Of a stretch of DNA of 64,000 nucleotides, positions 10,972 through 64,000 are shown piece after piece. The notes beneath the pieces are model-generated. The model did not search any database. It had not been told where the DNA came from and saw only the letters and a program-made list of their open reading frames with translations. The DNA lies in the NCBI RefSeq assembly GCF_000635915.2, contig NZ_CP015614.1, positions 851,501 to 915,500 of the forward strand, read 5' to 3'. Origin of the DNA: Brevundimonas naejangsanensis (lineage in GTDB: Bacteria > Pseudomonadota > Alphaproteobacteria > Caulobacterales > Caulobacteraceae). Made by a program: the position numbers and the translations under genes. Every line of letters starts with the position of its first letter. Within the stretch, counting starts at the first letter, position 1.

Positions 10972-12168
10972 ATGCCCCGAAAGGCTCAAGAGCTTGGCCC
11001 TCTGTCCGTGTCGAGACTGCGCGAACCCGGCCTGCATTTTGTCGGCGGGGTCGCGGGACTAGCCTTGCAGGTGTTGCCGACCGGCGGCAGGACCTGGGTG
11101 CTACGGGTCACGATAGGCTCGAAGCGTAGGGAGATGGGGCTAGGCGGCTTTCCCGATGTGACGCTTGCGAAGGCGCGGGAAGCGGCGCGGGACGCCCGTG
11201 ATCAGATCCGCCGCGGCGTCGATCCCATTGAAACGGCGCGAGCAGCACGAAACGCTCTCAAGACTACTAGGACCGCGGGCATCACCTTCCGGGCTGCCGC
11301 TGAAGCCTACGTAGCAGCGCATGAGGCAAGCTGGAAAAACCCCAAACATCGAGCGCAATGGGCGGCGACGCTCGAAAAATATGTGTACGGGGTGATCGGA
11401 AATCTCGGCGTCGAGGAAGTCGCCCTGTCGCACGTGATGGAGATACTGGATCCCATTTGGACCACGAAGACGGAGACGGCCAGTCGGCTTAGAGGACGAT
11501 TGGAAATGGTGCTCGATTGGGCGACAGCCCGTGCATACCGCTCCGGACCAAACCCTGCGAGATGGCGCGGCCATCTGGACAAACTATTGGCCAAGCCTTC
11601 GAGGGTGAAGAAGGTCGTTCATCACAGAGCTTTGCCGATTGACGAGTTGCCGGAATTCATGACGAAGTTGCGCGGCGTGTCAGGGTCGGGCGCCCGGGCG
11701 TTGGAGTTTGCTATCCTCACTGCGGCACGATCCGGCGAGGTAAGAGGTGCGCTTTGGTCAGAGATCGATCTCGATCGGCGCCTCTGGACCATTGGAGCAG
11801 AGCGAATGAAGGCGGGGAGGGTGCACCGAGTTCCACTTTCTGGTTCAGCGCTCAGTCTTCTGAAGGCCACGCCCAAATGGGCTGGCATAGACCTGGTATT
11901 CCCAGGATCAAGCGGTCAACCGCTTTCAGATATGACGCTGTCTTCCGTGCTCAGGCGCATGAAAATACCGGCCGTACCTCATGGATTCCGATCCACTTTC
12001 CGTGACTGGGTGTCCGAACGTACTACGTACCCGCAGGAAGCAGCAGAAATGGCTCTGGCGCATACCGTAAATAACAAGGTCGAAGCTGCCTATCGTCGAG
12101 GCGATATGATGGCTAAGCGATATCAGTTGATGGAGGACTGGGCCGCTTTCTTCAACGGGACTCAGTGA
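10972..12168 (+). CDS. int: P4-type tyrosine integrase
   Basis: Site-specific recombinase of about 398 residues. The N-terminal DUF4102/arm-binding domain is visible (LREPGLHFVGGVAGLALQVL, IGSKRREMGLGGFPDVTLAK, AREAARDARDQIRRGVDPI). A SAM-like core-binding domain and the catalytic domain follow, with Arg in TAARSGEVRG, HGFRSTFRDW, LAHTVNNKVEAAY and the nucleophile Tyr. I start at ATG 10972 because P4 integrases begin shortly before the arm domain, and the upstream frame has no family sequence. It marks the left end of the element; the relaxase, ParB and SSB genes 40-50 kb away could belong to the same unit. Confidence 0.9.
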   Translation: MPRKAQELGPLSVSRLREPGLHFVGGVAGLALQVLPTGGRTWVLRVTIGSKRREMGLGGFPDVTLAKAREAARDARDQIRRGVDPIETARAARNALKTTRTAGITFRAAAEAYVAAHEASWKNPKHRAQWAATLEKYVYGVIGNLGVEEVALSHVMEILDPIWTTKTETASRLRGRLEMVLDWATARAYRSGPNPARWRGHLDKLLAKPSRVKKVVHHRALPIDELPEFMTKLRGVSGSGARALEFAILTAARSGEVRGALWSEIDLDRRLWTIGAERMKAGRVHRVPLSGSALSLLKATPKWAGIDLVFPGSSGQPLSDMTLSSVLRRMKIPAVPHGFRSTFRDWVSERTTYPQEAAEMALAHTVNNKVEAAYRRGDMMAKRYQLMEDWAAFFNGTQ

Positions 12169-13365: not shown

Positions 13366-14223
13366 CTAGCCGACCTTGCGGCGCGGCGTGGTCCGACGCG
13401 CTTTCGCCGGCGCCACGGAGCTCTTGGCGCCGGCCCGACGACGAGGCGAAGCGCCGCTGTCCAGGCTGGCGCGCAATGCGGCCATAAGGTCCGCCACGTC
13501 CGTATCTTCAGGCTCAGATGCGCGGATCGGCTTGTGGCCCTTCTGTTTCGCAGCGATGAGCGCCTTGAGCGCTTCCTCGTAGCGGTCGACGAACTGGTCG
13601 GGATCGAAGGGGCCGGCTTTCTGTTCGATGATCCGACGAGCGATATCGACCATGGCTGGGTCGGGCGCCTGATCTGCAATGGCTCCGAAAACGTCCCGCG
13701 ACGGCCTGACCTCGTCGCGCGTGCGCAGGGAATAGGCCAAGATTCCCTGGTCGCGCGGCTCCAGCGCCAGCAGGCGTTCCCGGGTGGAAAGAACCACGCG
13801 TCCGAGGGCGATCTTGCCTTCCGACCTCATGGCTTCCCGGATGACGCCGAACGCCTCTTCGGCCAAGGCCCCCGCCGGCGCCAGATAGTAGGGGTTGTCC
13901 CAATAAAGGCGGTCGATCTCTTCCTCGGGGACGAAGCGCTCGATGTCGATCGTTTTGGTGCTCTCCAGCTTGACCGACTTGATCTCCTCGTCGGTCAGCA
14001 GAATGTACTCGTCCTTGGCGACCGCGTAGCCCTTGACCAGAGACGAGCGCTCCACAGGTCCAGTGTCAGGGTCGGTCGTCACCATTCGAATGCGGTTATT
14101 GGTCTCGGGGTTGATCAGATTGAACCGCACATCGCCGCCGGAGCTTGTCGCCGTGTAAAGCGCCACCGGGCATGTCACGAGGGAAAGGCGCAGGTGTCCC
14201 TGCCAGGTGGGGCGATAAGCCAT
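13366..14223 (-). CDS. ku: Ku protein, non-homologous end joining
   Basis: Bacterial Ku homodimer subunit, 285 residues, which binds double-strand DNA ends and normally recruits LigD. The family start is clear (MAYRPTWQGHLRLSLVTCPV). The ring-domain sequences KGYAVAKDEYILLTDEEI, DRLYWDNPYYLAP and LGRVVLSTRERLLALEPRD follow. The C-terminal tail is basic and low in complexity (RRRAGAKSSVAPAKARRTTPRRK), as in many Ku proteins. No ligase D gene lies in the window, so joining would depend on a LigD elsewhere. No EcfG-like promoter is visible in the 69 bp upstream. Confidence 0.95.
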   Translation of the reverse strand: MAYRPTWQGHLRLSLVTCPVALYTATSSGGDVRFNLINPETNNRIRMVTTDPDTGPVERSSLVKGYAVAKDEYILLTDEEIKSVKLESTKTIDIERFVPEEEIDRLYWDNPYYLAPAGALAEEAFGVIREAMRSEGKIALGRVVLSTRERLLALEPRDQGILAYSLRTRDEVRPSRDVFGAIADQAPDPAMVDIARRIIEQKAGPFDPDQFVDRYEEALKALIAAKQKGHKPIRASEPEDTDVADLMAALRASLDSGASPRRRAGAKSSVAPAKARRTTPRRKVG

Positions 14224-19643: not shown

Positions 19644-20323
19644 ATGATCTCGGGCCACACGCCGGCGCGGAGCCTGATCGCCAAGCTCGAGAAGCGGGAC
19701 AGGCTCAGCCCCGCCGAGCGGACGGCGCTTGAGCACGCGGTTGACGCCCCTGTGCTGCATCGCGCAGGAGAACTGATCCTCCTTGCGGGCGTTCGGCCGT
19801 CCGACTGTCGCCTCCTCGTTTCGGGGCTCGCCGCCGGATCAAGGCCTTTCAGAGCTGCGCGCGCTCCATCAACCAGCTGAGCGTAGCGGGAGATTTTCTG
19901 GACCTGCACAGCTTGGTGATGAAGCAGGTGGACCATGGCGTCCTGGCGCTTACCGACTGTATCACTGCGGCCCTGCCTCACCGCCTTATGGCGGACCTGA
20001 TCGAGACCCAGCCTCATCTTGGCCGGTTGTTCATGCTGGAGCTGGCGATCGACGGGGCGATCCAGCGTGAATGGTTTCACCGGCTAGGACGCCAGGACGC
20101 GCTCGGGCGGATGGCTCATCTCCTGTGCGAGCTCGACGTCCGGATCGCCATGGCGGGACTGGCAGACCAAGACGGGTTCAGCCTGACCATGACCCAGGAA
20201 GATTTCGCCGACTGCCTAGGGCTTTCGTCGGTGCACGTGAACCGCACGCTCGCTGAGTTGCGGGGCCGTGGTTTAGCGACCTGGCGCGCCGGCTGGGTCG
20301 AAATCCATGACCATGCGGCCTAG
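19644..20323 (+). pseudogene. Crp/Fnr-family regulator, frameshifted
   Basis: The first frame reads MISGHTPARSLIAKLEKRDR to DCRLLVSGLAA, the start of a Crp/Fnr cyclic-nucleotide-like domain. The continuation, ending QLSVAGDFLDLHSLVMKQVD and the HTH_Crp sequence QEDFADCLGLSSVHVNRTLA, is in another frame. Restoring one C near 19835 (GCCGCCCGGATC) joins them as GLAARIKAFQS, as expected for the family. So it is either a recent pseudogene or a base-calling error in a C run. Its closest relative in the window is the regulator at 25836. Confidence 0.75.
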
Positions 20324-20989: not shown

Positions 20990-21277
20990 TTAGGATTTCG
21001 CCACTCGGGGACCATTGTCCCTGAAGCGCCACTTCATGAACAGCACGCCCGACGCCATGGCCAGGGCGCAGGCGTTCGCGATCGTCACAGGCCAGGCTTC
21101 GGTCATGACGCCGTAGATCACCCAGAGGATGAAGCAGGTGACGGTCAGCCCATATGTCTTCAGGCTCACCGCCGAGGCGTCCTTCTCTTTCCAGATCTTG
21201 ACGCCCTGGGGCGCGAAACTGGTGATGGAGCAGACGGCGGCGGCCGAGCCGACGATATTGGCGACGAGTTCACTCAT
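20990..21277 (-). CDS. SemiSWEET-type sugar transporter
   Basis: 95-residue membrane protein with three hydrophobic segments and the PQ-loop motif (SITSFAPQGVKIWKEKDASA), as in bacterial SemiSWEETs, which dimerise to move sugars down a gradient. The family sequence continues VSLKTYGLTVTCFILWVIYG. A perfect EcfG-type promoter (21286-21310) ends only nine bases before the ATG, so the message would have almost no leader. The substrate is unknown. Confidence 0.88.
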   Translation of the reverse strand: MSELVANIVGSAAAVCSITSFAPQGVKIWKEKDASAVSLKTYGLTVTCFILWVIYGVMTEAWPVTIANACALAMASGVLFMKWRFRDNGPRVAKS

Positions 21278-21285
21278 AGAACCGC

Positions 21286-21310
21286 AACGTCAGGCGCCAT
21301 CTGCTGTTCC
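21286..21310 (-). promoter_or_regulatory. EcfG-type promoter for the SemiSWEET gene
   Basis: On the minus strand: GGAAC (21310-21306), 16 bp, CGTT (21289-21286), a perfect match. The expected start site at about 21279 is next to the ATG (21277), implying a leaderless or near-leaderless transcript. Confidence 0.75.
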
Positions 21311-24628: not shown

Positions 24629-25414
24629 TCAGGCCGTGTCGTGCACGCGGACATCGCGGGAGACCCAGCTGGCGGCTTCCGGCGGACGGAGCGACGCGGT
24701 TGTCGCGGCCGCTGCGGAAACTCCGCGATCGCCGCAACCGCAAGAAACGGCCCGTAGGCCTGCCAGATTCAGGATTTGGACCTTCCCACGACCGAAACGC
24801 ACGAGTCCTTGGGCCTGGAGGCGTCCAGCGGCCGCGTTGACGCTGGTTCTCTGCACGCCGAGCATGGCGCCGAAATCGGCCTGGGTCAGGCGCAGGGGAG
24901 CGCCGTTGGCCCCGCAATGCAGCCGGACCAGCCATTTGGCCAGCCGCTCCTGAACGAGATGGGAGGCGTTGCAGACCGCTTCGGCGGCCAGACCGCTCAG
25001 GCGACCAGATGACTGGCGGGCTACCAGACGAGTCAGCCAGTCGCGGCCGAGGTGCTCGACGACGCAGTCCGCGGGTACGCGGCAAAGAGTGGTGTCGATC
25101 AGCGCCCGAGCCGGAGGGCGGTCGCCGTCGGGTTCCAGGGCTTGATCCCAACCGTGGACAGACCCCGCGACGATGGTCGCAACGCAGACGCCGTCGCTTT
25201 TAGGGAAGAGGCCCAGGACCCCCGCCAGAACAAAGGAGAGGAAACCGTCTTCCTCCAAGGCTTGGCCGGCAGGCAAGGACGTCAGCCGGCGGCGGGCCAG
25301 AGCGGTCGATTGAAAGCGGTGGGGAAGCGCTTGGAAGACAGGGTGGTCGTCCAGATCCAGGTGCGGACGATGAAGGCCGCAGCCTGGATTGGCGAGGCTG
25401 ATCATAGGTTGCAT
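24629..25414 (-). CDS. Crp/Fnr-family regulator (divergent)
   Basis: 261-residue regulator. The N-terminal sensory half is a divergent cyclic-nucleotide-like beta roll (AGVLGLFPKSDGVCVATIVA). The helix-turn-helix is recognisable (LRLTQADFGAMLGVQRTSVN) followed by a wing (QAQGLVRFGRGKVQILNLAG). No Fnr-type cysteine cluster is visible. ATG 25414 has a CAGGAG ribosome-binding site. One of five Crp/Fnr-like loci between 19.6 and 33.7 kb. Confidence 0.8.
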   Translation of the reverse strand: MQPMISLANPGCGLHRPHLDLDDHPVFQALPHRFQSTALARRRLTSLPAGQALEEDGFLSFVLAGVLGLFPKSDGVCVATIVAGSVHGWDQALEPDGDRPPARALIDTTLCRVPADCVVEHLGRDWLTRLVARQSSGRLSGLAAEAVCNASHLVQERLAKWLVRLHCGANGAPLRLTQADFGAMLGVQRTSVNAAAGRLQAQGLVRFGRGKVQILNLAGLRAVSCGCGDRGVSAAAATTASLRPPEAASWVSRDVRVHDTA

Positions 25415-25592
25415 GTCGGACTCCTGAGCCCAGAGTGACGCCCTGGGCGCGAACCGCACTTACATAGGTTAGGAAAAGAGCGGGACGGCCGCTAGCCGCT
25501 AGGCGCGCGCCGCGTGTTTGATGAGAGTCCGGCTTCGTACAGAAGGAACGAGGGTCCTGATGCCGGATTCAGCTTCCGGAACAGGAGGCGAT

Positions 25593-25835: not shown

Positions 25836-26618
25836 GTGACGGAACGCGTCCCGCGCCCGGGGATTATCCAAGGCACACCCTGGCTCGAGGAGACCGTCCT
25901 GATCAGCCCCCTGATCCAGAAGCTGTCGCGTCGGGACGAACTCACGGCAGCCGAGACGCGGGTTCTGGAAGAACTGCTGCAACCCCCGATCGTCATACCG
26001 GCGGGGACGGATATCGTCAGTCAGCATTCAACCCCCGGGTTCAGCACCTTGGTCCTCGACGGGTTCGCCGGACGTTATGTCATGCTGACGAACGGCTCTA
26101 GGCAAATCACGCAATTGAACGCGCCAGGCGACTTCGTCGATCTTCACAGTCTGATGATGAGCCCGATGGATCACGGGGTGGTCGCGCTGACCCGCTGTAC
26201 AGTCGCGCGATCTCCCCATGAGGGCCTGCGCCGCTTGACGGAGTCTGAACCCCATCTCACCCGGCTGCTCTGGCTGGATACCCTGATCGACGCCGCCGTG
26301 CATCGGCAATGGATCGCAGGTCTTGGGCGTCGGACAGCGGTGGCGCGGCTCGCCCATCTCCTGTGCGAACTCTATCTCCGGCTGGAGATCGTCCATCGCG
26401 CGGGAAGCTGCAAGATGGAGCTTCCTGTCAGCCAGGCCGTGCTTGCAGACATCCTCGGCCTGTCGGAGGTTCACGTTAATCGTTCCATAGCCCAGCTCCG
26501 GACAGCGGAACTGGTCAAATGGAAAGGACGCGCCATTGAGATTTGCGACTGGGACGGTCTGGTCAGGCAGGCGGAGTTCGAAGCAACCTATCTGAGGCTG
26601 ACAAGAGCGCCGGTCTAG
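25836..26618 (+). CDS. Crp/Fnr-family regulator
   Basis: 260-residue regulator with a complete architecture: a cyclic-nucleotide-like domain (GFAGRYVMLTNGSRQITQLN, APGDFVDLHSLMMSPMDHGV), a long dimerisation helix and HTH_Crp (VSQAVLADILGLSEVHVNRS) with a C-terminal DWDGLVRQAEFEATYL. No cysteine cluster for an iron-sulfur centre. GTG start, which could lie slightly further in. Close in sequence to the frameshifted copy at 19644, which suggests duplication within the element. Confidence 0.88.
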   Translation: MTERVPRPGIIQGTPWLEETVLISPLIQKLSRRDELTAAETRVLEELLQPPIVIPAGTDIVSQHSTPGFSTLVLDGFAGRYVMLTNGSRQITQLNAPGDFVDLHSLMMSPMDHGVVALTRCTVARSPHEGLRRLTESEPHLTRLLWLDTLIDAAVHRQWIAGLGRRTAVARLAHLLCELYLRLEIVHRAGSCKMELPVSQAVLADILGLSEVHVNRSIAQLRTAELVKWKGRAIEICDWDGLVRQAEFEATYLRLTRAPV

Positions 26619-27544: not shown

Positions 27545-29970
<2,426 letters not shown>

Positions 29971-29974
<4 letters not shown>

Positions 29975-32914: not shown

Positions 32915-33667
32915 CTACGGCGGTGGAATGAGCGGCCCGCAGACGGCGCTGAGATTGGCCGCCTGAACAAGACCGGGCAGATCCTGCAGCAGAGTGCGTC
33001 CCGTCCGGTAGTCGACGAGGACGTTGCGTCGGAGCTGCTGCAGCGTGCGGTTCATGTGGACCGCGCTCAGGCCGAGGATATCGGCGAGCACGTCCTGGGT
33101 CAGGGGAAGGTGCAGGGCGCCGCCGCGCGCCGTTCCCAGACGCACCTGCCGTTCGTGCAGTTCCAGCAGCAGATGGGCCGTGCGTTCGTAGGCGTTGAGC
33201 CGGCCGAGCCGGACGACCTGGCGCGCCATGCGCAGCCGCTCGGCCGTCCGGCAGCGCCGCCAGGCCTCGCTCAGGGGAGAGGCCTGGGCGCCGGGTTCGG
33301 AAAGCGTGGTCCAGAAGGCGGTGGCGTCCACCGTGACGACATCGGTGAGGGCCCAGACCAGGAGGTCGGCGTCTACCGATCCGGAGGCGACGATCACGTC
33401 GCCGGGGAGGCTGAGACCGATGATCTGGCGTCGCCCGTCGTTCAGCATGGCGCCGCGCGCGATCCAGCCGCTCGCCACCAGCCGGGCCTGGTTGCGTTCG
33501 GGATCCATCGGAATGGCGGCGCCGGACGGCTGGTGCTGCGGCGCTCCGCTGAAGCTGCGACGGACCAGGTCTCTTCCTTCGATACCTATCGGGGCGAAGC
33601 TGGCCAACATAATCTCCAGAGGGGCGGTGAGCCGCGCTTCAAGACCTGCATCCGACTGATTCTTCAT
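32915..33667 (-). CDS. Crp/Fnr-family regulator
   Basis: 250 residues. A sensory domain (VASGWIARGAMLNDGRRQII, LSLPGDVIVASGSVDADLLV) and an HTH_Crp domain (LTQDVLADILGLSAVHMNRT, then LQQLRRNVLVDYRTGRTLL) are complete. No iron-sulfur cysteines. I start at ATG 33667 (MKNQSDAGLEARLTAPLEI), where family sequence begins; the frame extends upstream without it. Weak ribosome-binding site. It may control the nearby galactofuranose or cyanophycin genes. Confidence 0.82.
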   Translation of the reverse strand: MKNQSDAGLEARLTAPLEIMLASFAPIGIEGRDLVRRSFSGAPQHQPSGAAIPMDPERNQARLVASGWIARGAMLNDGRRQIIGLSLPGDVIVASGSVDADLLVWALTDVVTVDATAFWTTLSEPGAQASPLSEAWRRCRTAERLRMARQVVRLGRLNAYERTAHLLLELHERQVRLGTARGGALHLPLTQDVLADILGLSAVHMNRTLQQLRRNVLVDYRTGRTLLQDLPGLVQAANLSAVCGPLIPPP

Positions 33668-33948
33668 GGTCTTCGACCAACAGCACGGCTTCGGCGTCCA
33701 GTTCTTCACATAGGTTGGTTTTTGCGCATTTCGCCTGAGCCAGCGGGCGAAGTTCGGCGTCTCGAGCGGCCCTGCCGGTCCAGCAGGCGGCGCCGAGGCC
33801 GTTGCGCGGCAGGTGTCGGCTCTCAAACCCTCGGAGCGGATGTTTAGCGCAGGCGCCAGCCGCCAGGGCGAGAGGGCGCGGGGGCGTCGCGCGGCGTCCA
33901 GAGCATTTGGGCGTCGGCTGCCGCACAGGGGGGCCGCAGCTGGACTCT

Positions 33949-34875
33949 TCAGACGGTGACGACGGCGCCGACGGCGGCGATGCGCTCGACCTCGGCGTAG
34001 GAAGGCCGCGCGAGGCTGGCCCCGAAAACATCAGGATCGATCTCTTCATAGACCAGCCGCGCCCCCGCCTGGCCCGCCAGGGCGGCGAGGGCGGCGCGCA
34101 CCAGGTCCTGGCCGGCCACGACCGGGGCGCCGGTGTAGAGCACGAAGGCTCCGCCAGGCGCGAGACGGGAGAGGGCTTCGCTCGCCCATCCCAGAGCGAC
34201 CTCCGCCCCGTATTGACCGCCTCCGTCGCGATACAACCGCCCGTTGCGGCCAGCCATATAGGGCGGATTGGCGGCGATCAGGTCCCAGACGCCCTCGGCT
34301 GGAAAGCCGCCCGGGCGGAGGTCGATCGCGAGCCCGGCATGTCGGGCGTTGAGGCGGCTTAGGCGAAGGGCCTGGGGATTGATGTCGGTCGCGGCGACAG
34401 CGGCGGCCGGATCGAGGGCGGCGATCGCCAGGGCTCCGGCTCCCGCCCCGACGCCGATCTCCAGCGCCTGTCGCCAGGCGCAGCCGGACAGGGCCTGGCG
34501 CAGGAAACGCACGTAACGATAGCTGTCCGGTCCCAGAAAGACGGCTTGCTCGTCCGCGGACGAGGCGGAATGCAGGTGCAGGCGTCCGTCCAGACGGCTC
34601 ACGCGCAGTCGGGCGCGCAAGCCATCGGGGTCTTCGGCGAGGGCGTCGGCCGCCGTCAGGACGTCCATAAGCCACGCGGGCGCGATTTCGGGACAGAAGG
34701 CCCGGCCCCAACCAAGGATATCGCGAAGAAGGTCGGCCTCGGCCGCCCGGCGCCGCCGCGCGACCAGGCGATGGACCGCCGGGGTCGGCGAGACGAAGTC
34801 ATAACCGACGCTCTCCAGTCGGGAAAGCAGCTCAAGCAGCGCGGCGTCGCCGGGCGCAAAGGCCTGCGTCGTCAC
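33949..34875 (-). CDS. Class I SAM methyltransferase, PrmC/HemK-like
   Basis: 308 residues. The C-terminal half is a Rossmann methyltransferase: ALEIGVGAGAGALAIAALDP (SAM motif I), AATDINPQALRLS, and DLIAANPPYMAGR. The NPPY motif is typical of enzymes that methylate planar nitrogens (Gln or bases). Its GTG start overlaps the stop of the iron-enzyme gene upstream (GTGA), so the two are translationally coupled. True PrmC acts on release factors. The pairing here with a heme-oxygenase-like iron enzyme suggests a small-molecule or peptide substrate instead, by inference. Confidence 0.8.
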   Translation of the reverse strand: MTTQAFAPGDAALLELLSRLESVGYDFVSPTPAVHRLVARRRRAAEADLLRDILGWGRAFCPEIAPAWLMDVLTAADALAEDPDGLRARLRVSRLDGRLHLHSASSADEQAVFLGPDSYRYVRFLRQALSGCAWRQALEIGVGAGAGALAIAALDPAAAVAATDINPQALRLSRLNARHAGLAIDLRPGGFPAEGVWDLIAANPPYMAGRNGRLYRDGGGQYGAEVALGWASEALSRLAPGGAFVLYTGAPVVAGQDLVRAALAALAGQAGARLVYEEIDPDVFGASLARPSYAEVERIAAVGAVVTV

Positions 34876-35786
34876 GCCGAGCGACGCAGGGGAGCCTGAC
34901 CCCAAAGATGCGCCCGGTAGGCGTCGAAACAGCGGGCGCCGGCCATCAGCCGCATGATCGCGCCTTCAGCAAGGGCGCGGACGCACTCCGGCCGCTCCTG
35001 CGCTAGGGGGCGAAGCACTTCCTCGTTCCAGGCTTCGGAATGGGCGATGTCCAGGGTCGCGTGGAGGGCGAAATACTTGCGCTCCACGCCGACGCCCAGC
35101 CGTTTCAGGCCTTCGGCCACATGGGCGGCTCGCCATGGGGCCGTGAGCTCCACCGCCCCCAAGGCCCCGAGGGCGTGGTAGGCGTAGCGTCTCTGGGTGG
35201 AGAAGGCGACAAGGGTATTGCCCAGGGCGAGGGACGGCCACGCCGTTTCCTCGATCCGGGGATGCAGGTCGAGCGCCGTCGCTAGACGGTCCAGCATGGG
35301 ACCATGCATGCCAGCCTCCGATCCGCGACCCATTTCGTCCCAGTAGTTGCGCGCCAGCTCGAGCTTGGGCCGGGTCGGCATCTTGACCTGGGCCATCGCC
35401 ACGAGGTCCTCGAACCCCGCTTCGCCGGCCACCTCCTGCAGCAGGAACCAGCGCATCTCCTCCATCGAGGCCGTCTCGGCCAGCCAGGGGAAGAGCGGGT
35501 CCGCCTCGCCGGGACCGGATCCCTTGAGCGCCTCGAACCAGGCGACGAAGCCGTCCGCCGTGGCGGGGAGATCGGCGAGCCAGGGGGCGGCCTCGACCCG
35601 GGCCCGTTCGATGAAGTCGCCCTCGACCAGCATCATCTCCGCATCATGACGGACATCATCGCGCCAATCACGGCGCGGCGTGGCCGGGGCGAGGCGGCGG
35701 TGGTTCCAGTGCGCCAACCGGCGATGAAAGCCCGCCGGGTCCGAGGGTTCGGAGGCGAGAAGCGAGGCCGGACCTTCTGAGGACAT
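34872..35786 (-). CDS. Heme-oxygenase-like iron-containing redox enzyme
   Basis: 304-residue all-helical protein of the iron-containing redox enzyme type (heme-oxygenase-like di-iron fold). Candidate iron ligands lie in EEMRWFLLQEVAGEAGFED, NYWDEMGRGSEAGMHGPM and FALHATLDIAHSEAWNEEVL, which supply spaced Glu, His and Asp residues. Such enzymes oxidise or cleave amino-acid-like or fatty-acid substrates. ATG 35786 has AGGAG upstream. Coupled to the PrmC-like methyltransferase by a GTGA overlap; divergent to the cyanophycin genes. The substrate is unknown. Confidence 0.8.
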   Translation of the reverse strand: MSSEGPASLLASEPSDPAGFHRRLAHWNHRRLAPATPRRDWRDDVRHDAEMMLVEGDFIERARVEAAPWLADLPATADGFVAWFEALKGSGPGEADPLFPWLAETASMEEMRWFLLQEVAGEAGFEDLVAMAQVKMPTRPKLELARNYWDEMGRGSEAGMHGPMLDRLATALDLHPRIEETAWPSLALGNTLVAFSTQRRYAYHALGALGAVELTAPWRAAHVAEGLKRLGVGVERKYFALHATLDIAHSEAWNEEVLRPLAQERPECVRALAEGAIMRLMAGARCFDAYRAHLWGQAPLRRSA

Positions 35787-35893
35787 GAAAGGCTCCTGTG
35801 AGTGGGGATTGCCATACGCCTTGCCGCGGCCCCGGGTTCCCGAAGGGACAGGAGGCGGCGAAATCCCGCTCTCGGTGTCCGGTTTCGGACAGT

Positions 35894-35918
35894 GGAACTG
35901 GGTTCGGGAAAGTCGGTT
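35894..35918 (+). promoter_or_regulatory. EcfG-like promoter leading into cphA-cphB
   Basis: GGAAC (35894-35898), 16 bp, GGTT (35915-35918). Predicted start near 35925, about 20 nt before GTG 35945, with AGGGAGG in between. No other promoter is evident before cphA, so the cyanophycin genes would be read from here. Confidence 0.62.
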
Positions 35919-35944
35919 CAACCAATCCTTCAGGGAGGTGTCGA

Positions 35945-36136
35945 GTGGAACAGAATGGATTTGCATGGACGATCCGCCAGGTCGGGGAGACCTGGACCTG
36001 GGCTGTGACAGCCCCGGGAGGCGGGACCGTCCTTGTCTCCGGCCAAGCTCCGTCAAGGGCCGCAGCCGCCGCCATGGTGGTCCGCGCCCTAGCGCGAGGG
36101 ATGACCGAGGCGGCGCCTCGGGAATTGGCCGCATAG
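35945..36136 (+). CDS. Small protein preceding cyanophycin synthetase
   Basis: 63 residues from GTG (VEQNGFAWTIRQVGETWTWA), with strands then a helix (APSRAAAAAMVVRALARGMT). AGGGAGG lies eight bases upstream. It is the first gene behind the EcfG-like promoter and ends 29 bp before the cphA start. Not recognised. Confidence 0.62.
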   Translation: MEQNGFAWTIRQVGETWTWAVTAPGGGTVLVSGQAPSRAAAAAMVVRALARGMTEAAPRELAA

Positions 36137-36165
36137 GCATGACGGCGACGAGCGGAGAGCGGGTG

Positions 36166-38913
36166 ATGCAGGTCCTGGAGCGAAGCGTCTATCGCGGCCC
36201 CCACCTGTACAGCGCCAGGCCCATGGTGCGGATCCGCCTGGATCTGGGGCGGATGGAGGACTGGCCGACGGATCGGCTGGGCGATTTTTCGACTCGCCTG
36301 CTGGAGGCGCTTCCCGGCCTGGATCGACACGGATGCTGCTACGGGGAACCGGGCGGATTTGTCCGTCGTCTTCGGGACGGAACCTGGTTCGGCCACGTGG
36401 CGGAGCACGTCGCCCTTGAACTGCAGACGCGCGCGGGAACCCCTGTCACCCGGGGTAAGACGCGTTCGGTGCGCGGGCAGCCGGGCGTCTACGACATTCT
36501 CTTCACCTATCGGGACGAAACGACGGCCCTTCTGGCCGGACGGCTGGCCCTGCAGGTCTGCAACGCCCTGCTGCCGGAAGCGCTCGCTGGGATCAGCGGC
36601 CTGGACCGGGTCTGCGCAGACAGTCTGGATCCGCGCCTCCCGGACGCCGTCCAGGCCGACGAGGCGGCGGCCATTCTCCGCGACGCGGTGCGCCGGACGG
36701 CGTTCGGCCCCTCTACCCAGGCTCTGGTCGACGCCGCGCGACGCCGAGGGATTCCCGTCGAACGTCTCAACACCGGGAGTCTCCTGCGCCTGGGATGGGG
36801 CGCCCGGCAGAGACGCCTGCGCGCCAGCGTGACGGACCGCACGGGCCTGATCGCGGCGGAGCTGGCAGGCGACAAGGCCCAGGCCAAGGCCTTGCTCGAA
36901 GCCGCAGGCTGTCCAACCGCGCGCGGGAAGGTGGTGCGCACCGCGGACGAGGCCGTGGACGCGGCCGCACGCCTCGGCGGCAGGGTCGTGGTCAAGCCGC
37001 TCGACGGCAACCACGGACGGGGCGTGACCACAGGCCTGGACACGCCCGAGGCCGTCAGGAAGGCTTTCGCTCTGGCCGCGTCCCACGCAAGACGCGTCAT
37101 TGTCGAACAGGAGCTTCCTGGCCGGGATTATCGGGTCCTGGTGGTCGACGGCAGGGTCGTCGCCGTCGCCGAGCGTCGGCCGCCGTGCGTCGAGGGCGAC
37201 GGGCGCCGGTCGGTGTCTGAACTGGTGGAGGAGGTCAACGCCGATCCGCGTCGGGGCGTCGGCCATGAGAACAGCCTGAGCGTGATCCGTCTTGACGAGG
37301 AGGCGCTGACGCTACTGGCCCGCCAGGGCCTGTCCCCCGAAAGCGTTCCGGGGCCCGGCGTCAGGGTCCTGCTGCGAACCGCGGCCAACCTTTCCTCGGG
37401 CGGGACGGCGACCGACCGGACCGACGAAATCCATCCGGCCAACGCCGCCATCGCCCGGCGGGCCGCCCTGGCCCTCGGCCTGGACGTGGCCGGGGTGGAT
37501 CTTCTGGCGCCGGACATCCGCCGCTCGGTGCGCGACACCGGCGGGGGCGTGGCCGAGGTCAATGCGGCGCCGGGATTGCGGATGCATCTGTCGCCTTCGG
37601 AGGGCGAGGCGAGGGACGTCGCCCGGCCGATTGTGGACATGTTGTTTCCGCGCGGCGTCCGGTCCCGGATCCCAGTGATCGCGGTGACGGGCACCAACGG
37701 GAAATCGACGGTGGGCCGGATGATCGCCCATGTGCTGCAGACGGAAGGACGCGTCGTGGGTCTGACCAACACCAGCGGCGTCTATGTCGACGGGGAGAGG
37801 ATCCGCGCCGGCGACGCCAGCGGTCCGCGCAGCGCCCGCATGGTGCTCAATGATCCTGTCGTCGATGTCGCGGTGCTGGAGTGCGCCCGAGGCGGCATCC
37901 TGCGCGAGGGGCTAGCCTTCGACCGCTGTGACGTCGGCTGCGTCCTCAACGTCCAACCGGACCACCTGGGGCTCAAAGGGGTGGACACGCTGGAGGACCT
38001 GGCGAAGGTCAAGTCGGTGGTGGCCGAGGCCGTGTCCCGGCGGGGGCTGAGCGTCCTCAACGCCGATGATCCCCTGACCCTGCGTATGGCGCGCCATGCC
38101 GGAGGCCGTGTCTGCTGGTTCTCCATGCGCGGCGGCGCCGAGACGCCGGGCTTCCTGCTCAAGCATGTGGCCGAAGGCGGCGCGGCGGTCCTCTATGACG
38201 CCGCGAGCGGCGTGATCGAGCTTCATGACCTTGGCGAGCGCCGCCGGTTGGGCCATGCGGCGGACCTGCCTTCGACCCTGGGCGGGGCGGCCGCCTTCAA
38301 TGTGGCCAACATCCTGGCGGCTTCGGCAGCCTGCTACGGCGTGGGCGTGCCGCCGGAGCGGATCGGGGCGGCCCTGGGAAGCTTCACATCCAGCTACGAG
38401 CAGAATCCCGGCCGCCTCAACATCTGCGACCAGCACGGCTTCCGAGTCGTCATGGACTACGCCCACAATCCGGACGGCCTTCGGGCGCTCTGCGGCCTTG
38501 TGGCCGCGATCCGGCCCGCCGGCGGTCGGACCATCGCCATGATCAGCATCCCCGGCGACCGGCGGACGCAGGAGATCGTCGCCATGGGCGAGATCAGCGC
38601 CGGCTTTTTCGACGAGGTCGTCTTCAGGGAGACGCCTGACAACCGGGGTCGTCCCGCCGGTGAAGTGATCCGCCTTCTCGCCGAAGGCGCGCTGCGAAGC
38701 GGTGCGGACGGCTCGCGTTTCCGCGGCGTGCAGAAGGAAGAGGACGCCGTGGCCGCATGTCTTGAAGCAGCGCGACCCGGGGACCTCGTCATCCTGACGC
38801 CGACCCGTATCGAAGCAGTTTGGGCGCAGATCCTGGCCTTTCGTCCCGCCTTCCCGTCCTCGGCCCTGGGCTTGAATGCGCCCGGCGTCATCCTGGAGCC
38901 TCCCCATGGGTAA
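36166..38913 (+). CDS. cphA: Cyanophycin synthetase
   Basis: 915-residue enzyme that polymerises aspartate and arginine into cyanophycin granules with ATP. The N-terminal domain starts MQVLERSVYRGPHLYSARPM, as in CphA. An ATP-grasp domain follows (VVVKPLDGNHGRGVTTGL at about residue 273; HPANAAIARRAALALGLDVA) and then a Mur-ligase-like domain (VIAVTGTNGKSTVGRMIAHV at about 504; MDYAHNPDGLRALCGLV). Length is normal for CphA1. I chose ATG 36166, which has GGAGAG upstream; an in-frame ATG nine codons earlier is possible. The stop overlaps the cyanophycinase start by eight bases. Confidence 0.95.
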   Translation: MQVLERSVYRGPHLYSARPMVRIRLDLGRMEDWPTDRLGDFSTRLLEALPGLDRHGCCYGEPGGFVRRLRDGTWFGHVAEHVALELQTRAGTPVTRGKTRSVRGQPGVYDILFTYRDETTALLAGRLALQVCNALLPEALAGISGLDRVCADSLDPRLPDAVQADEAAAILRDAVRRTAFGPSTQALVDAARRRGIPVERLNTGSLLRLGWGARQRRLRASVTDRTGLIAAELAGDKAQAKALLEAAGCPTARGKVVRTADEAVDAAARLGGRVVVKPLDGNHGRGVTTGLDTPEAVRKAFALAASHARRVIVEQELPGRDYRVLVVDGRVVAVAERRPPCVEGDGRRSVSELVEEVNADPRRGVGHENSLSVIRLDEEALTLLARQGLSPESVPGPGVRVLLRTAANLSSGGTATDRTDEIHPANAAIARRAALALGLDVAGVDLLAPDIRRSVRDTGGGVAEVNAAPGLRMHLSPSEGEARDVARPIVDMLFPRGVRSRIPVIAVTGTNGKSTVGRMIAHVLQTEGRVVGLTNTSGVYVDGERIRAGDASGPRSARMVLNDPVVDVAVLECARGGILREGLAFDRCDVGCVLNVQPDHLGLKGVDTLEDLAKVKSVVAEAVSRRGLSVLNADDPLTLRMARHAGGRVCWFSMRGGAETPGFLLKHVAEGGAAVLYDAASGVIELHDLGERRRLGHAADLPSTLGGAAAFNVANILAASAACYGVGVPPERIGAALGSFTSSYEQNPGRLNICDQHGFRVVMDYAHNPDGLRALCGLVAAIRPAGGRTIAMISIPGDRRTQEIVAMGEISAGFFDEVVFRETPDNRGRPAGEVIRLLAEGALRSGADGSRFRGVQKEEDAVAACLEAARPGDLVILTPTRIEAVWAQILAFRPAFPSSALGLNAPGVILEPPHG

Positions 38914-39730
38914 GGGACCCCTGATCATCATCGGCGGACATGAGGACAAGACCGGCGAGCGGGTCATCCTCAAGGAGGTCGCCCGGCGCCTCGACGGCGG
39001 CAAGCTGGTGATCGCGACCATCGCCTCCCATAAACCCGAGGGCTATTTCGACAGCTATCGGGAAGGCTTCAAGGGCCTCGGCGTCGGGGAACTGATCGAG
39101 CTCTATGTCGAGGACCGAGCCGAGAGCCATGAGCAGGACCTTCTCGACAGGCTCGAGGGAGCCGCCGGCGTCTTCTTCAGCGGCGGCGACCAGCTCAGGC
39201 TGGCCAGCCAGATCGGCGACACGCCGATCGAACGACGCATTCGCGATCTCCATGCGCGCGGGGGCCTGATCGCAGGCACATCGGCGGGGGCTTCGGTGAT
39301 GAGCGAGACCATGTTGGTCAAGGGGCCGAACGCGGAATCCTATCGGATCGGCGAGGTGCACATGGCCCCCGGACTGGGCTTGCTCCCCAATGTCATTATC
39401 GATCAACATTTCGCTGAAAGGGGCCGGTTCGGCCGGCTGTTGGGCGCCGTGGCCCACAATCCGCGACTTATGGGGCTGGGAATCGACGAAAACACCGCGG
39501 TGGTGGTCGAGCAAGGGGCGCTGCGGGTGCTCGGAGACGGCGCCGTATACGTCGTAGACGGGGCGGACGCGACCCATTCCAATATCTCGGAAGGCGGCGC
39601 CGAGGACGCCCTGTCCATGTTCGACGTGCGCCTCCACGTCATGTCGCAAAGCGATGTGTTTGACCTGGACCGCCGTCGCCCCCAACGCGCCGGTTCGGAG
39701 GGAAAGGGTGAGAGCGGCGATCCGCTGTGA
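38906..39730 (+). CDS. cphB: Cyanophycinase
   Basis: Serine exopeptidase of the S51 family, 274 residues, which releases beta-Asp-Arg dipeptides from cyanophycin. The nucleophile is Ser126 in IAGTSAGASVM, and FFSGGDQLRL and GLLPNVIIDQHFAERGRFGR are family sequences. ATG 38906 lies inside the end of cphA (eight-base overlap), with GGAG before it, so synthesis and breakdown enzymes are made from one message. Isoaspartyl dipeptidase, needed to finish breakdown, is not in the window. Confidence 0.95.
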   Translation: MGKGPLIIIGGHEDKTGERVILKEVARRLDGGKLVIATIASHKPEGYFDSYREGFKGLGVGELIELYVEDRAESHEQDLLDRLEGAAGVFFSGGDQLRLASQIGDTPIERRIRDLHARGGLIAGTSAGASVMSETMLVKGPNAESYRIGEVHMAPGLGLLPNVIIDQHFAERGRFGRLLGAVAHNPRLMGLGIDENTAVVVEQGALRVLGDGAVYVVDGADATHSNISEGGAEDALSMFDVRLHVMSQSDVFDLDRRRPQRAGSEGKGESGDPL

Positions 39731-39807: not shown

Positions 39808-40326
39808 ATGACCAATGCAGACGACATCTGGCGTGATGTCTTCGTGACGGGCCTCAAGAACGCCCACGCCGTGGAAAACCAAGCCCTGGCCCTGATGGAT
39901 CGCCAGATCGATCGGGCGCTGAACTTCACCGAGGTCGCCGACCGGTTGAAGGCCCACCGTCTTGAAACCGAGGGACAGATCCTGCGACTGGAGACCCTGC
40001 TGGAGGGCTTCGACGAGAAGCCGTCCGGCCTTAAGGACGCTGCGCTCTCGCTCGGCGGCAACCTGGCGGCCATCGGCCACAGCTTCGCCGAGGACGAGAT
40101 CCTGAAGAACGCCTTCGCCAACTACGCCTTCGAGAACTTCGAGGCGGCCTCCTATCGGGCCCTGATCATTCTGGCTGAGAGCGGCGGCTATGCGGCGGCC
40201 TACGACCCCCTCGCGGCCACCTTGGAGGAGGAGGTGCGCATGGCGCGGTGGGTCGACGAAAGCCTGCCCATGCTGGTGGAGAAGCATCTCGAGCTGAGGC
40301 GCGCCGGCGAGAACTCCAGCCGCTGA
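39808..40326 (+). CDS. YciE/YciF-type ferritin-like protein (DUF892)
   Basis: 172-residue four-helix protein. Helices carry the Glu and His ligands expected for a di-iron centre (GLKNAHAVENQALALMDRQI, AHRLETEGQILRLETLLEGF, NYAFENFEAASYRALIILAE). The family is induced by osmotic or oxidative stress in many bacteria; its chemistry is unclear. GGAAGGA precedes the ATG. Probably read together with the manganese catalase 46 bp downstream. Confidence 0.85.
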   Translation: MTNADDIWRDVFVTGLKNAHAVENQALALMDRQIDRALNFTEVADRLKAHRLETEGQILRLETLLEGFDEKPSGLKDAALSLGGNLAAIGHSFAEDEILKNAFANYAFENFEAASYRALIILAESGGYAAAYDPLAATLEEEVRMARWVDESLPMLVEKHLELRRAGENSSR

Positions 40327-40372: not shown

Positions 40373-41278
40373 ATGTTCATGCACAACAAGAAGCTGATGT
40401 ACACGGTTAGGGTCGCCGAACCCAATCCCGCTCTCGCCACCCTGATGCTCGAACAGTTCGGCGGTCCCCAAGGTGAGCTCGCCGCCGCCATGCGCTACTT
40501 CACCCAAGGGCTCGCCGACGAGGACAGCGGCCGTCGCGATATGTTGATGGACATCGCCACGGAGGAGCTGAGTCACCTGGAAATCATCGGTTCGATCGTC
40601 GCCATGCTCAATCGCGGGGCTAAGGGCAAACTCGCGGAAGCCGCCGAGGAAGAAGCGGATCTCTACGCCAGCATGACCTCGGGCGGAGAAAGCCACACCA
40701 TGTCCATCCTTTATGGCGGCGGCACGGCCCTGATCAATTCCGCCGGCGTGCCGTGGACGGCGGCCTATATCGACTCCATTGGTGATCCGGCCTGCGATCT
40801 GCGCTCCAATATCGCGGCCGAATCCCGGGCCAAGATCGTTTATGAGCGGCTGATCAACGTCACCGATGACGCGGGGATCAAGGACGCCCTGACCTTCCTC
40901 ATGACGCGGGAGGTGGCCCACCAGAAGGCCTTCGAGAAGGCGCTTTACGCCATCCCCGCCAACTTCCCGCCCGGCAAGCTTCCCGGTCATCCGGACTTTG
41001 CCGACAAATATTACAACATGTCCCAAGGAGAGGGGGATGCGAGCGGGCCCTGGAACCAGGGCGAGCAGTGGGAGGTCGTGGACGACCGCGAAGCCCAGGC
41101 GGCGGTGGACGGCGGCGCGGGCGACGCCTCGGTCAAGCTGTCGGCGGCTGACAAGAAGTCAGTGCAGGCTTTTGCGGCCCGCACCCAGTCCGACCCTTCA
41201 GCCGATCCGATCACTGGAGCCGATCTCGGCGCCGGGCCTGGGGCCGGTCGCACCACGCCTCTGGCGGCTCCGGACTGA
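40373..41278 (+). CDS. Manganese catalase
   Basis: 301-residue non-heme di-manganese catalase that dismutates hydrogen peroxide. Ligand-bearing sequences are visible: GGPQGELAAAMRYFTQGLAD, MDIATEELSHLEIIG and REVAHQKAFEKAL. The start MFMHNKKLMYTVRV is that of the family. A disordered C-terminal tail (about residues 215-301) is longer than the core needs. GGAAC lies 33 bp upstream but without a matching -10, so an EcfG promoter is not claimed. Confidence 0.95.
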   Translation: MFMHNKKLMYTVRVAEPNPALATLMLEQFGGPQGELAAAMRYFTQGLADEDSGRRDMLMDIATEELSHLEIIGSIVAMLNRGAKGKLAEAAEEEADLYASMTSGGESHTMSILYGGGTALINSAGVPWTAAYIDSIGDPACDLRSNIAAESRAKIVYERLINVTDDAGIKDALTFLMTREVAHQKAFEKALYAIPANFPPGKLPGHPDFADKYYNMSQGEGDASGPWNQGEQWEVVDDREAQAAVDGGAGDASVKLSAADKKSVQAFAARTQSDPSADPITGADLGAGPGAGRTTPLAAPD

Positions 41279-60171: not shown

Positions 60172-61413
60172 ATGCTCATTCGCGAGGCGATCGAGACCCG
60201 GTTGTCAATCGGCGCCGCGCCGGACGCCGAGGGTGTCCAGGTGCGCCTTCCTCGGTCCCTGAAGACCGACCGGGCGCCGGTGCGCGTGGGCATGTACCAG
60301 CGGCTGTCGGCCTCGCGGCAGTTCGCTCTCGGCGATCGTTCGGGCGTGCTCAGGACGGCGCTGGGCCGGTCAGGTCGCGCCTTCCGAATGGATGTCCGCC
60401 AGCGCGTCATCGTGAAGGCCCTGGTGTCGCGGCATGTGGGAAAGGGTGCCGTGCGGGCAGGGGCGTTGGCGTCGCACGTCGCTTATCTCGGCCGGCCGGG
60501 CGCGGGCGCGGATGGCGCGCGCCCGGGCTTCTTTGGCCGCACCAACGACGACGTGGAAGCGTCTCTCGTGACGCGAGGCTGGAGCGGGGACCGTCATCAT
60601 TTCCGCTTCATCGTTTCGCCCGAGCACGGCGACCGGATCGCCGACCTGAGGGGGTATGTGCGGGAGGTGATGGCGCGCGTATCGGCCGATCTGGGCGAGT
60701 CGGATCTGCGCTGGGTCGCGACCTGTCACTACGATACGGATCAGCCACACGCCCATGTCCTCGTACGGGGGCGAAGGGCGGATGGACGCGATCTGGTTAT
60801 TCCCCGGGCCTATATGGGCTACGGCTTCCGGGCGCGGGCGCAGGAGGTTGCGCAGGAACGGTTGGGCGACCTGTCGCGCGTGGAGGCGGAGCGGCGCGTC
60901 TGGAAGGAAACCCATGCGGATCGGTTCACCACGTTTGATCGGCGCCTGTTGGCGGCGGCGGATGAAGGGTGGACGGTCGATGACGGGGTAGGCGCCAATG
61001 ACGCCTGGGCGGCGCTGACCCGCGGGCGCCTACGGTATCTGGAGGGACTTGGGCTCGCCACGCGGACAGGGCGGCGATACCGACTCGATCCGGAGATCGA
61101 GACGAAGTTACGCAAGCTTCAGGCGCGCCGAGACGTAATCAGAACGATGAACCAGCGTCGCCTGGAAGGGGCGCGAGAGGTGCGGCAGTTCGGGGAGGGG
61201 CGGGTGAAGGGCGTGGTGATGAAGGCCGGGTTTCACGATGAAGTCGGTGCGACGCCATTCATGGTTGTGAAGGATGGTGACGGGATTGAGCACTATGCCC
61301 GGTTAAAGGCGGGTTCTCGGCCATTGGCCATGGGGGAGACGGTGATGCTGACCCCCGGTTCAAACGGATTGGCGATGGCGGCGGCGCTAAAAGTGCGGGG
61401 CGTGGAGTTATGA
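60172..61413 (+). CDS. DUF3363-type (VirD2-like) relaxase
   Basis: 413-residue mobilisation relaxase. The family core is clear: GDRHHFRFIVSPEHGDRIAD, the metal-binding three-His motif CHYDTDQPHAHVLVRGR, and GYGFRARAQEVAQERLG. The C-terminal DUF3363 region (GRVKGVVMKAGFHDEVGATP) is shorter than in typical family members of about 600 residues. AGGAGG precedes the ATG. It would nick the element's transfer origin and lead the strand into a recipient. No type IV secretion genes are in the window, so it may be mobilisable rather than self-transmissible, or they lie outside. Confidence 0.88.
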   Translation: MLIREAIETRLSIGAAPDAEGVQVRLPRSLKTDRAPVRVGMYQRLSASRQFALGDRSGVLRTALGRSGRAFRMDVRQRVIVKALVSRHVGKGAVRAGALASHVAYLGRPGAGADGARPGFFGRTNDDVEASLVTRGWSGDRHHFRFIVSPEHGDRIADLRGYVREVMARVSADLGESDLRWVATCHYDTDQPHAHVLVRGRRADGRDLVIPRAYMGYGFRARAQEVAQERLGDLSRVEAERRVWKETHADRFTTFDRRLLAAADEGWTVDDGVGANDAWAALTRGRLRYLEGLGLATRTGRRYRLDPEIETKLRKLQARRDVIRTMNQRRLEGAREVRQFGEGRVKGVVMKAGFHDEVGATPFMVVKDGDGIEHYARLKAGSRPLAMGETVMLTPGSNGLAMAAALKVRGVEL

Positions 61414-61705: not shown

Positions 61706-63085
61706 TCATTCAATTGGCACGATGGGCTGCTGGCGCTTCTCGGTCATCACACGAGCGGCATTCCTGGCCACAAAGGCGTGCAGGGTCGCTGGCCCTCCGT
61801 CCAGATAGGCCCTGACGACCGGGCCGTTGATCAGCAGAAACTGTAGATGCGTGGAGGCCGTAATTTCGCGTGCGTAGTTGATGGCTTCGCGTGAAAAGTC
61901 GGAAGTCGTGACGACGGCGACAACATGCGACTTGCCGTAGATCGCCAGTCCGACCTCCTTGGCGACATCCCCCAGGCTCACGTTGGACTTCACGCACTTG
62001 CACTGGATGTTCCAGCGCGAGAACAGCAGTTGCGTACCCTCAGCGGTGAGGTCGACCTCGGCGTAGGCCGTATCCTTGCTGCGTTGACGGAAGGACCGCG
62101 GCTGAAGGCCAAGGTCGATCATCATCCGTAAGGCGAGCAGTTCCAGTCCAAGACCGCGATCGAAAGTCGCTTCGCTTAGCAACAGCCGCTGGATATCCGA
62201 GCGCGGCATGTCGATCTTGTCGCGCAGATCCGCCGGCACGACCTCATCGAAATCAGGCACAACGGCACTAAAAGGCACTTCCAGGAGTTTGGATGTCGCG
62301 GTCACCATCCCGCTCTTGGCGCCACGACCACCCGTTCGTGCTGTCAACTCGACCCAGCCCGCCGCCTCAAGCGGGCGCAGCACCTTCTTACTGAGTTGAT
62401 CCTCGTGGAACTGGGTCGGATAGTCGCGCAAACACTCGTCGGTGACGAGTTTGGATGGAACGGTGTGGGCCGCCTCCGCCTCGGCGAGGCGGCGCAGGAT
62501 TTTCAAGAAGATCTGCTGCTCGAGAGGAAGGGATGCGATCTCTGCACGCTCCTCCGAAGTCACGCCCAAGACGCGCTTTAGAGCGGCGTCGACAGGAAGA
62601 TAGTTCGCGGACTTATCTAGCAGACCGGCCGCGGCCATCCAGTTCATGAGCGTCGTGTGATCGGTCGTCGCCGCAGAGAGCCCCTCCACTCCGAGAAGCT
62701 GAAGCTCGCGTTTCAGGCTGACTTTGCTGACCGGCTCGGCCCGCCGGTTCAGTGCCCGCACGGCCTCGATGATCATCATGCCGTTGCGGGTCTCAACAAC
62801 ATGTGCGCTAAGCGCCTCAGCGCCGGCGAGCGGCGTCGCTGCGGCCGCGATGACCTCGCCTTTCGGCGTCAGAGCGCAGGTCTTGCGGTCAAACAAACCT
62901 AAGCTGGTCAAGGTCGCGGGAATGTTGGTGCTGGCACGCTTATTGTCAGCACCTTTGAAATAGTCGTTCGCCCAGGCTGACACGACGGCGGAGAAATCCG
63001 GCGCGAGCCTTTGCAACGTCAGGAGAGGCTGACGCACATCGCCAATGATCCCCGGGGAGAAGTCGTTGAACGATGGCAACCTCAC
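61706..63085 (-). CDS. Restriction endonuclease with Mrr-like nuclease domain
   Basis: 459 residues. The N-terminal 300 are helical with winged-helix-like segments (LPLEQQIFLKILRRLAEAEA; SKKVLRPLEAAGWVELTART). The C-terminal nuclease fold has ELLALRMMIDLGLQPRSFRQ, AEVDLTAEGTQ and IQCKCVKSNVSLGD, i.e. the Asp ... Gln-x-Lys pattern of Mrr-type PD-(D/E)xK nucleases. The GTG start overlaps the methyltransferase stop (GTGA), so the two form a coupled restriction-modification pair. The recognition site is unknown. Confidence 0.82.
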   Translation of the reverse strand: MRLPSFNDFSPGIIGDVRQPLLTLQRLAPDFSAVVSAWANDYFKGADNKRASTNIPATLTSLGLFDRKTCALTPKGEVIAAAATPLAGAEALSAHVVETRNGMMIIEAVRALNRRAEPVSKVSLKRELQLLGVEGLSAATTDHTTLMNWMAAAGLLDKSANYLPVDAALKRVLGVTSEERAEIASLPLEQQIFLKILRRLAEAEAAHTVPSKLVTDECLRDYPTQFHEDQLSKKVLRPLEAAGWVELTARTGGRGAKSGMVTATSKLLEVPFSAVVPDFDEVVPADLRDKIDMPRSDIQRLLLSEATFDRGLGLELLALRMMIDLGLQPRSFRQRSKDTAYAEVDLTAEGTQLLFSRWNIQCKCVKSNVSLGDVAKEVGLAIYGKSHVVAVVTTSDFSREAINYAREITASTHLQFLLINGPVVRAYLDGGPATLHAFVARNAARVMTEKRQQPIVPIE

Positions 63086-64000
63086 GCCGCCGCCTCCAAC
63101 CGTCCCAGAAGATGGGCCGACAGTTGCCCGCCGACGGCTTCGGCTAGGCGCGGCGGAACCGCATTGCCGATCTGGCGCCATTGCTGCTCGATCGTGCCGG
63201 CGAGGTCGAAATCGTCGGGGAAGGTTTGCAAGCGTTTGATCTCCTCGATCCGGAGAATGCGGCTGCGCCAGTGGAAGGGCCCCATATTATTTGAGCGTCG
63301 CGCCTGGATGGTCCAAGACGGCATGTCCGGGCTTAGCTTCAAGAGGAAAGACCAATAGCGACCGCGCCATTTGAACCGGGGCTCGGGGTGACCGCGCTTC
63401 TCTGTGAAGAAGAGATAGTTGTCGCCGGGCGGCACCAACTTCAGCAGATCGTTATGTTGACCGCCGGCGTAATGGCCCTTGTCGCTCGCCGCTTCCTCCG
63501 TATCGAGATCGGCTAGGACTGCGCCAGCCGTCACCCAAGGCTTGAGATCTTCCAACGGCTCTTTCGAGTGGGTCGGTGAAGGAAGGGTGAGGGCGCCATC
63601 TAGCGAGCCCAGGACAAAGCACCGTTCTCGGATCTGAGGCACGCCAAAGTCCGCAGCGTTCAAGACACCCCAGGTGACCTTGTAACCCAGGCCTTCAGCC
63701 CGGCCGATAATGGTGTCGAGCGCCTCGCGGTGGACGTTGTAGGCTAGGCCTTTGACGTTTTCCATCAGGAAGGTCCGGGGGCGGAACCATTCTAAGGTCT
63801 TCAAGAAACCATCGACGGTTTCCCAGCCGTTCGGGTCGTCAAGGGCCCTAGGCATGTCCTGGCGATAGAAGCGGCTCTTCGAGAATGGCGGGCAGGGGGG
63901 GCCGCCGGCGATCAGATCAATGTCGCCGATCTTGCCGCCCATGGCGTCCACGAAATCCTGTCGGGAAAACCGTCCGATCCGGCCGGTGAGGAACGGCGTC
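63082..64000 (-). CDS. DNA (cytosine-5) methyltransferase (5' end outside window)
   Basis: C5-cytosine methyltransferase, 306 codons visible. Motif IV is GGPPCPPFSKSRFYRQDM (catalytic Cys), motif VI FLMENVKGLAYN, motif VIII RSNN near TIQARRSNNMGPFHWRSR, and motifs IX-X are RRLQTF-like IKRLQTFPDDFDL and QIGNAVPPRLAEAV. The SAM-binding motif I lies beyond the window. It is followed with a GTGA overlap by the nuclease gene and would protect host DNA from it. Confidence 0.93.
   Translation of the reverse strand, partial: TPFLTGRIGRFSRQDFVDAMGGKIGDIDLIAGGPPCPPFSKSRFYRQDMPRALDDPNGWETVDGFLKTLEWFRPRTFLMENVKGLAYNVHREALDTIIGRAEGLGYKVTWGVLNAADFGVPQIRERCFVLGSLDGALTLPSPTHSKEPLEDLKPWVTAGAVLADLDTEEAASDKGHYAGGQHNDLLKLVPPGDNYLFFTEKRGHPEPRFKWRGRYWSFLLKLSPDMPSWTIQARRSNNMGPFHWRSRILRIEEIKRLQTFPDDFDLAGTIEQQWRQIGNAVPPRLAEAVGGQLSAHLLGRLEAAA

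Follow-up and report, generated by a model that had tools for sequence, protein, structure and literature searches.

A cyanophycin operon with a predicted EcfG-type promoter on an integrative conjugative element of Brevundimonas naejangsanensis

The genome of Brevundimonas naejangsanensis (2.97 Mb, single contig) carries, on an integrative conjugative element (ICE), a gene for a protein of 63 amino acids followed by cphA and cphB, the predicted genes for cyanophycin synthetase and cyanophycinase. We analyzed a stretch of 64,000 nucleotides containing these genes (contig NZ_CP015614.1, positions 851,501 to 915,500), referred to here as the window, with position 1 as its first letter; feature coordinates are collected in Table 1. 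Comparisons across related loci make it probable, at roughly 0.75, that the three genes form an operon that is transcribed through the sigma factor EcfG and thereby induced by general stress. An earlier reading of this DNA (the original prediction) had proposed just such a tie between the store and general stress, with both enzymes made together; the proposal is supported at the sequence level, from which we infer transcription by EcfG and polymer formation at times of stress.

Promoter motif ahead of the cyanophycin genes

The -10 box of the predicted promoter ends 26 bp before the start of the small gene. The site matches exactly the motif published for the S. melonis EcfG, GGAAC-N17-20-GTT (PMC6599016), and departs at one position from GGAAC-N16-CGTT. 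The original prediction had placed an EcfG-like promoter ahead of the small gene, and comparison bore this out at the sequence level: GGAAC-N16/17-[CGT][AG]TT was found at the same position in all 14 Brevundimonas cph loci, where 0.26 would be expected from Markov-simulated upstream regions. Among these loci CphA identity falls as low as 64%, and both spacer and flanks differ around the kept motif. A lone site of this type in one genome is weak evidence and not significant; its conservation is significant.

Several observations weigh against an EcfG promoter. The -10 box in the window is GGTT, whereas the commonest is CGTT. Genome-wide, the strict motif GGAAC-N16/17-CGTT is barely enriched (41 sites vs. 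34 for a reversed-motif control), and this single-genome count was dropped as support. Being of common ancestry, the Brevundimonas loci do not count as independent cases; of the other members of the CphA clade to which they belong, about half have no site within 450 bp; and the -10 box had been widened to [CGT][AG]TT after inspection of the data. Given this post hoc widening, the search was rerun separately with the published S. melonis motif, which occurred in 9/14 Brevundimonas cph loci and in 9/16 other sampled loci of the related CphA clade, but in none of the 35 controls, i.e., 20 distant alphaproteobacterial and 15 non-alphaproteobacterial cphA genes (expected, 0.2-0.3 per group). All promoter matches were confined to the clade containing the Brevundimonas CphA, and the matches in other genera add independent support for the promoter.

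In alphaproteobacteria, stress activates PhyR, and EcfG is thereby freed from NepR. The host genome carries nepR with an adjoining sigma factor gene of the extracytoplasmic function (ECF) type (ecfG), a divergent phyR and an HWE-type kinase gene, and canonical GGAAC-N16-CGTT sites lie ahead of both nepR and phyR. The promoter upstream of the cyanophycin genes might be a genuine ECF-type promoter recognized by a different ECF sigma factor, in response to a signal narrower than general stress. GGAAC -35 boxes are common to several ECF groups, and the divergent promoter next to the operon has CGTA as its -10 box. We nevertheless consider this reading unlikely, as several unrelated alphaproteobacteria have an exact GGAAC-N16/17-CGTT ahead of cphA, and no motif was found at cphA outside the alphaproteobacteria, where EcfG does not occur. 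Moreover, GGTT, CATT and CGTT are all -10 boxes of published EcfG promoters, the first two being included among those of PMC6599016, and the flexibility of the EcfG -10 box has been documented (PMC7083833). Elsewhere on the island, a PQ-loop gene (20990-21277) has a strict GGAAC-N16-CGTT site upstream (21286-21310, minus strand) that is kept in two other species and is likely a second EcfG-type promoter.

The region upstream of cphA held no good sigma-54, NtrC or FNR site (the best sigma-54 match had three mismatches and the best NtrC match five), and nitrogen (sigma-54/NtrC) or FNR control of the cph operon was rejected on this ground. Control by nitrogen is the usual expectation for cyanophycin, and nitrogen status could act on the operon through sigma-54/NtrC or another regulator, leaving the EcfG-like motif incidental or secondary. 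The persistence of that motif in 14/14 loci amid changing surroundings argues against such a role, as do the poor upstream matches, and we regard it as highly improbable. The original prediction had called stress control unusual. The promoter is not specific to this island: it looks like a common property of the alphaproteobacterial cph clade, whose members are often carried on plasmids or ICEs.

Genes and predicted activities of the operon

The 63-codon open reading frame at the head of the operon is very probably a genuine coding sequence, because it is present at the same position in relatives and differs between close pairs mainly at third codon positions. Its product has 12 invariant residues across nine sequences and matched no Pfam family in a Pfam search. 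With the promoter directly ahead of this gene, which is itself conserved, one might suppose that the promoter serves the small gene alone, perhaps together with the divergent gene, and that cphA and cphB have a promoter of their own. However, only 29 bp separate the end of the small gene from cphA on the same strand, and in other genera the motif is located 106-254 bp upstream of cphA, with a homologue of the small gene detected there in one locus only. Separate promoters are therefore very doubtful, and we favor a single transcript of all three genes.

CphA and CphB look intact, and cyanophycin synthesis is the predicted activity. CphA scored 1059 bits over residues 3-890 against the cyanophycin synthetase equivalog TIGR02068 (cut-off 850), and matches to PF18921, PF08443, PF08245 and PF02875 represent its N-terminal, ATP-grasp and Mur-ligase domains. 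The nucleotide-binding motifs KPLDGNHGRG and GTNGKST are kept in an alignment with the solved CphA 7wac. CphB scored 281 bits against the cyanophycinase equivalog TIGR02069 (cut-off 126.6) and preserves the nucleophile-serine motif of family S51, GTSAGAS, when aligned with the solved homologue 7uqv. The eight-base overlap of cphA and cphB that had been noted earlier was confirmed at 38906-38913 (ATGGGTAA), and an overlap of the same length (ATGGSTRA or ATGGTTGA) was seen in 13/13 Brevundimonas loci inspected.

In the mechanism that we propose, stress would activate PhyR and so release EcfG from NepR, and polymerase carrying EcfG would transcribe the small gene, cphA and cphB as one message. 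CphA would then make cyanophycin from aspartate, arginine and ATP, and CphB would cut it to beta-Asp-Arg, the 8-bp overlap presumably coupling translation of the two. A chromosomal isoaspartyl peptidase of the IaaA type would complete the breakdown. Simultaneous production of CphA and CphB suggests either turnover of the store or regulation acting on the proteins; that the small protein might exert such regulation is speculative.

An isoaspartyl peptidase gene was not found among the window genes examined, in agreement with the original prediction that isoaspartyl dipeptidase is not nearby. The step is absent from the operon, but two Asparaginase_2 (IaaA-family) genes are located elsewhere in the chromosome, and breakdown of cyanophycin could in principle still be completed; no IadA was detected above cut-off in the genome. 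In the CphA tree, the Brevundimonas sequences grouped together (100/100) within a clade of alphaproteobacterial and Deinococcus-plasmid sequences (100/99), many of them plasmid-borne. Three sequences (L056, L063 and L093) lay outside the tree and were assigned to the group by identity. Most other members of the clade have the gene order cphA-iaaA-cphB, with an isoaspartyl peptidase of the Asparaginase_2 type in the middle, whereas Brevundimonas has no iaaA between cphA and cphB; two species (L151 and L152) have an IaaA homologue directly after cphB. The absence of iaaA from the Brevundimonas operon is probably a derived loss. A Deinococcus plasmid (L206) carries cphA-iaaA-cphB without an EcfG-type site, and its CphA, 59% identical to that of the window, falls inside the alphaproteobacterial clade, pointing to a possible transfer between phyla.

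The mobile element and its other cargo

The original prediction that the cph genes lie on a mobile element was correct: the element is an ICE of about 117 kb inserted at tRNA-Ser(UGA), between two 17-bp repeats. Within the region searched, the 17-mer GTGTGGCGGACAGGGTG at 10810 has a single further copy, which lies at window-equivalent position 128203, in the 3' end of the tRNA-Ser(UGA) gene (128206-128295). In addition to the integrase and relaxase-like genes, the element encodes a Trb/VirB-type secretion cluster (T2SSE-type ATPase, TrbE, TrbL, VirB8, CagX and an S26 peptidase) and a coupling protein (T4SS-DNA_transf, 277 bits), and may at present be transferable. The tRNA-Ser site of a relative (G015) is uninterrupted, the homologue of 128206-130784 being followed, across the tRNA, by the homologue of window-equivalent -9966 to -8532; the genome under study therefore carries an insertion at tRNA-Ser. 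The left side of this empty site joins at -8532 and not at 10810, leaving about 19 kb of extra DNA to the left of the ICE (-8532 to 10810). No third att copy was found near the outer left boundary at -8532, and the extra DNA could have been inserted earlier or been lost from G015. An M13 peptidase gene left of the integrase was considered as a flank of the empty site and set aside as uninformative, being one of several paralogues. An origin from a plasmid by DNA similarity was likewise rejected: the stretch was present in no plasmid record, with relatives at the protein level only.

Recognizable cphA is patchy, occurring in about 16/131 Brevundimonas genomes; many further matches, limited to CphA residues 181-497, were set aside as other ATP-grasp proteins. 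The 7.3-kb cph block, from the methyltransferase gene to the manganese catalase gene, has counterparts of 88-89% identity in three other Brevundimonas species, where further parts of the island are absent or differently arranged. The haem-oxygenase-like gene adjoins cph in 13 loci, and its GGAAC-N16/17-CGTA is kept in 13 Brevundimonas loci. Similar neighbors recur outside the genus on unrelated plasmids: the methyltransferase and haem-oxygenase-like genes are likewise near cphA on S. yanoikuyae pKN1, and on R. leguminosarum pR132503 a DUF892 gene lies next to cphA and a manganese catalase gene near it.

Table 1. Features of the cyanophycin operon, its neighbors and the ICE (window positions)
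Feature	Position	Strand	Boundaries or evidence
EcfG-type promoter (predicted)	35894-35918	+	-35 GGAAC 35894-35898, spacer 16, -10 GGTT 35915-35918
Conserved 63-amino-acid gene, first of the operon	35945-36136	+	GTG 35945 to TAG 36136; conservation in relatives
cphA, cyanophycin synthetase, 915 amino acids	36166-38913	+	ATG 36166 to TAA 38913; TIGR02068; full-length alignment with 7wac
cphB, cyanophycinase	38906-39730	+	ATG 38906 to TGA 39730; TIGR02069; solved homologue 7uqv
DUF892 ferritin-like protein	39808-40326	+	PF05974, 123 bits
Manganese catalase	40373-41278	+	PF05067, 296 bits
Divergent ECF-type promoter (predicted), haem-oxygenase-like gene	35815-35840	-	GGAAC-N17-CGTA
Haem-oxygenase-like iron-containing redox enzyme, divergent neighbor	34872-35786	-	PF14518, 138 bits
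Methyltransferase, conserved neighbor	33949-34905	-	PF05175
attL, 17-bp repeat	10810-10826		other copy at window-equivalent 128203-128219
Tyrosine integrase of the ICE	10897-12168	+	PF00589, PF22022, PF13356
Relaxase-like gene of the ICE	60172-61413	+	DUF3363, 45 bits, above cut-off; Relaxase, 21.4 bits, below cut-off 24.6

The operon is cargo of the ICE together with further stress genes, those for manganese catalase, DUF892, Ku and LigD, whose presence on the same ICE fits a cargo for stress survival. The bacterial end-joining parts Ku (13366-14223, minus strand) and LigD (L009:1025-2860, minus strand) are about 70 kb apart. Four genes for Crp/FNR-type regulators are located in the cargo region (19913-20320, 24632-25459, 25836-26615 and 32915-33826), and the last of these also lies close to the cph block in relatives. 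Beside the block is also a cluster of sugar genes, in which a UDP-galactopyranose mutase is fused to a glycosyltransferase-like part (27545-29974, minus strand). Elsewhere on the ICE, a gene for an Mrr-type endonuclease adjoins one for a C5-cytosine DNA methylase (61706-64000 and beyond), a probable restriction-modification pair, and a single open reading frame at L009:11036-11959 combines nucleotidyltransferase and HEPN domains, as in toxin-antitoxin pairs.

Meaning and relation to known systems

Why heterotrophic bacteria keep cyanophycin is poorly understood. If the clade does belong to the general stress regulon, cyanophycin would count as a survival trait alongside catalases and Ku/LigD, the appearance of the polymer would become predictable (stress and stationary phase), and mobile cargo would be seen to plug into the recipient's own stress response by means of a conserved promoter. 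The idea is directly testable in culturable Brevundimonas. More broadly, we lean, by a little, toward a distinct alphaproteobacterial cph lineage that plasmids and ICEs have carried from genus to genus in the company of stress genes and that has become wired into the EcfG response of its recipients, providing a stress-survival store that would be built and degraded in parallel, as opposed to one set by nitrogen status.

The literature searched contained no link between EcfG and cyanophycin, and papers combining cyanophycin with 'general stress response' were, by title and abstract, on other matters; subscription literature lay mostly outside this search, and an earlier description is possible. 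Synthetase and cyanophycinase genes are adjacent in 81% of the genomes that have both (Sharon et al. 2023, PMC10206079). The present locus resembles the cphA1-cyanophycinase clusters described there in this adjacency and differs in the overlap of cphA and cphB, in the departure of iaaA from the operon and in being cargo of an ICE; in the text searched, a general-stress promoter is not described for those clusters.

The plasmid operons of the type found on S. yanoikuyae pKN1 and R. leguminosarum pR132503 belong to the same CphA clade (100/99), with the same stress neighbors on some and the same promoter motif on most plasmid copies. Unlike the Brevundimonas operon, they retain iaaA in the middle, between the synthetase and cyanophycinase genes, and the 63-amino-acid leader gene was not detected in them. 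The EcfG regulons of S. melonis Fr1 (PMC6599016) and S. granuli TFA (PMC7083833) share the promoter motif and have Ku, LigD, catalase and ferritin-like members, ku-ligD being a general-stress member in S. granuli (PMC7083833); the S. melonis Fr1 paper does not mention cyanophycin. Known enzymes and a known class of promoter are joined here in a combination that seems not to have been described before and that a whole clade has conserved.

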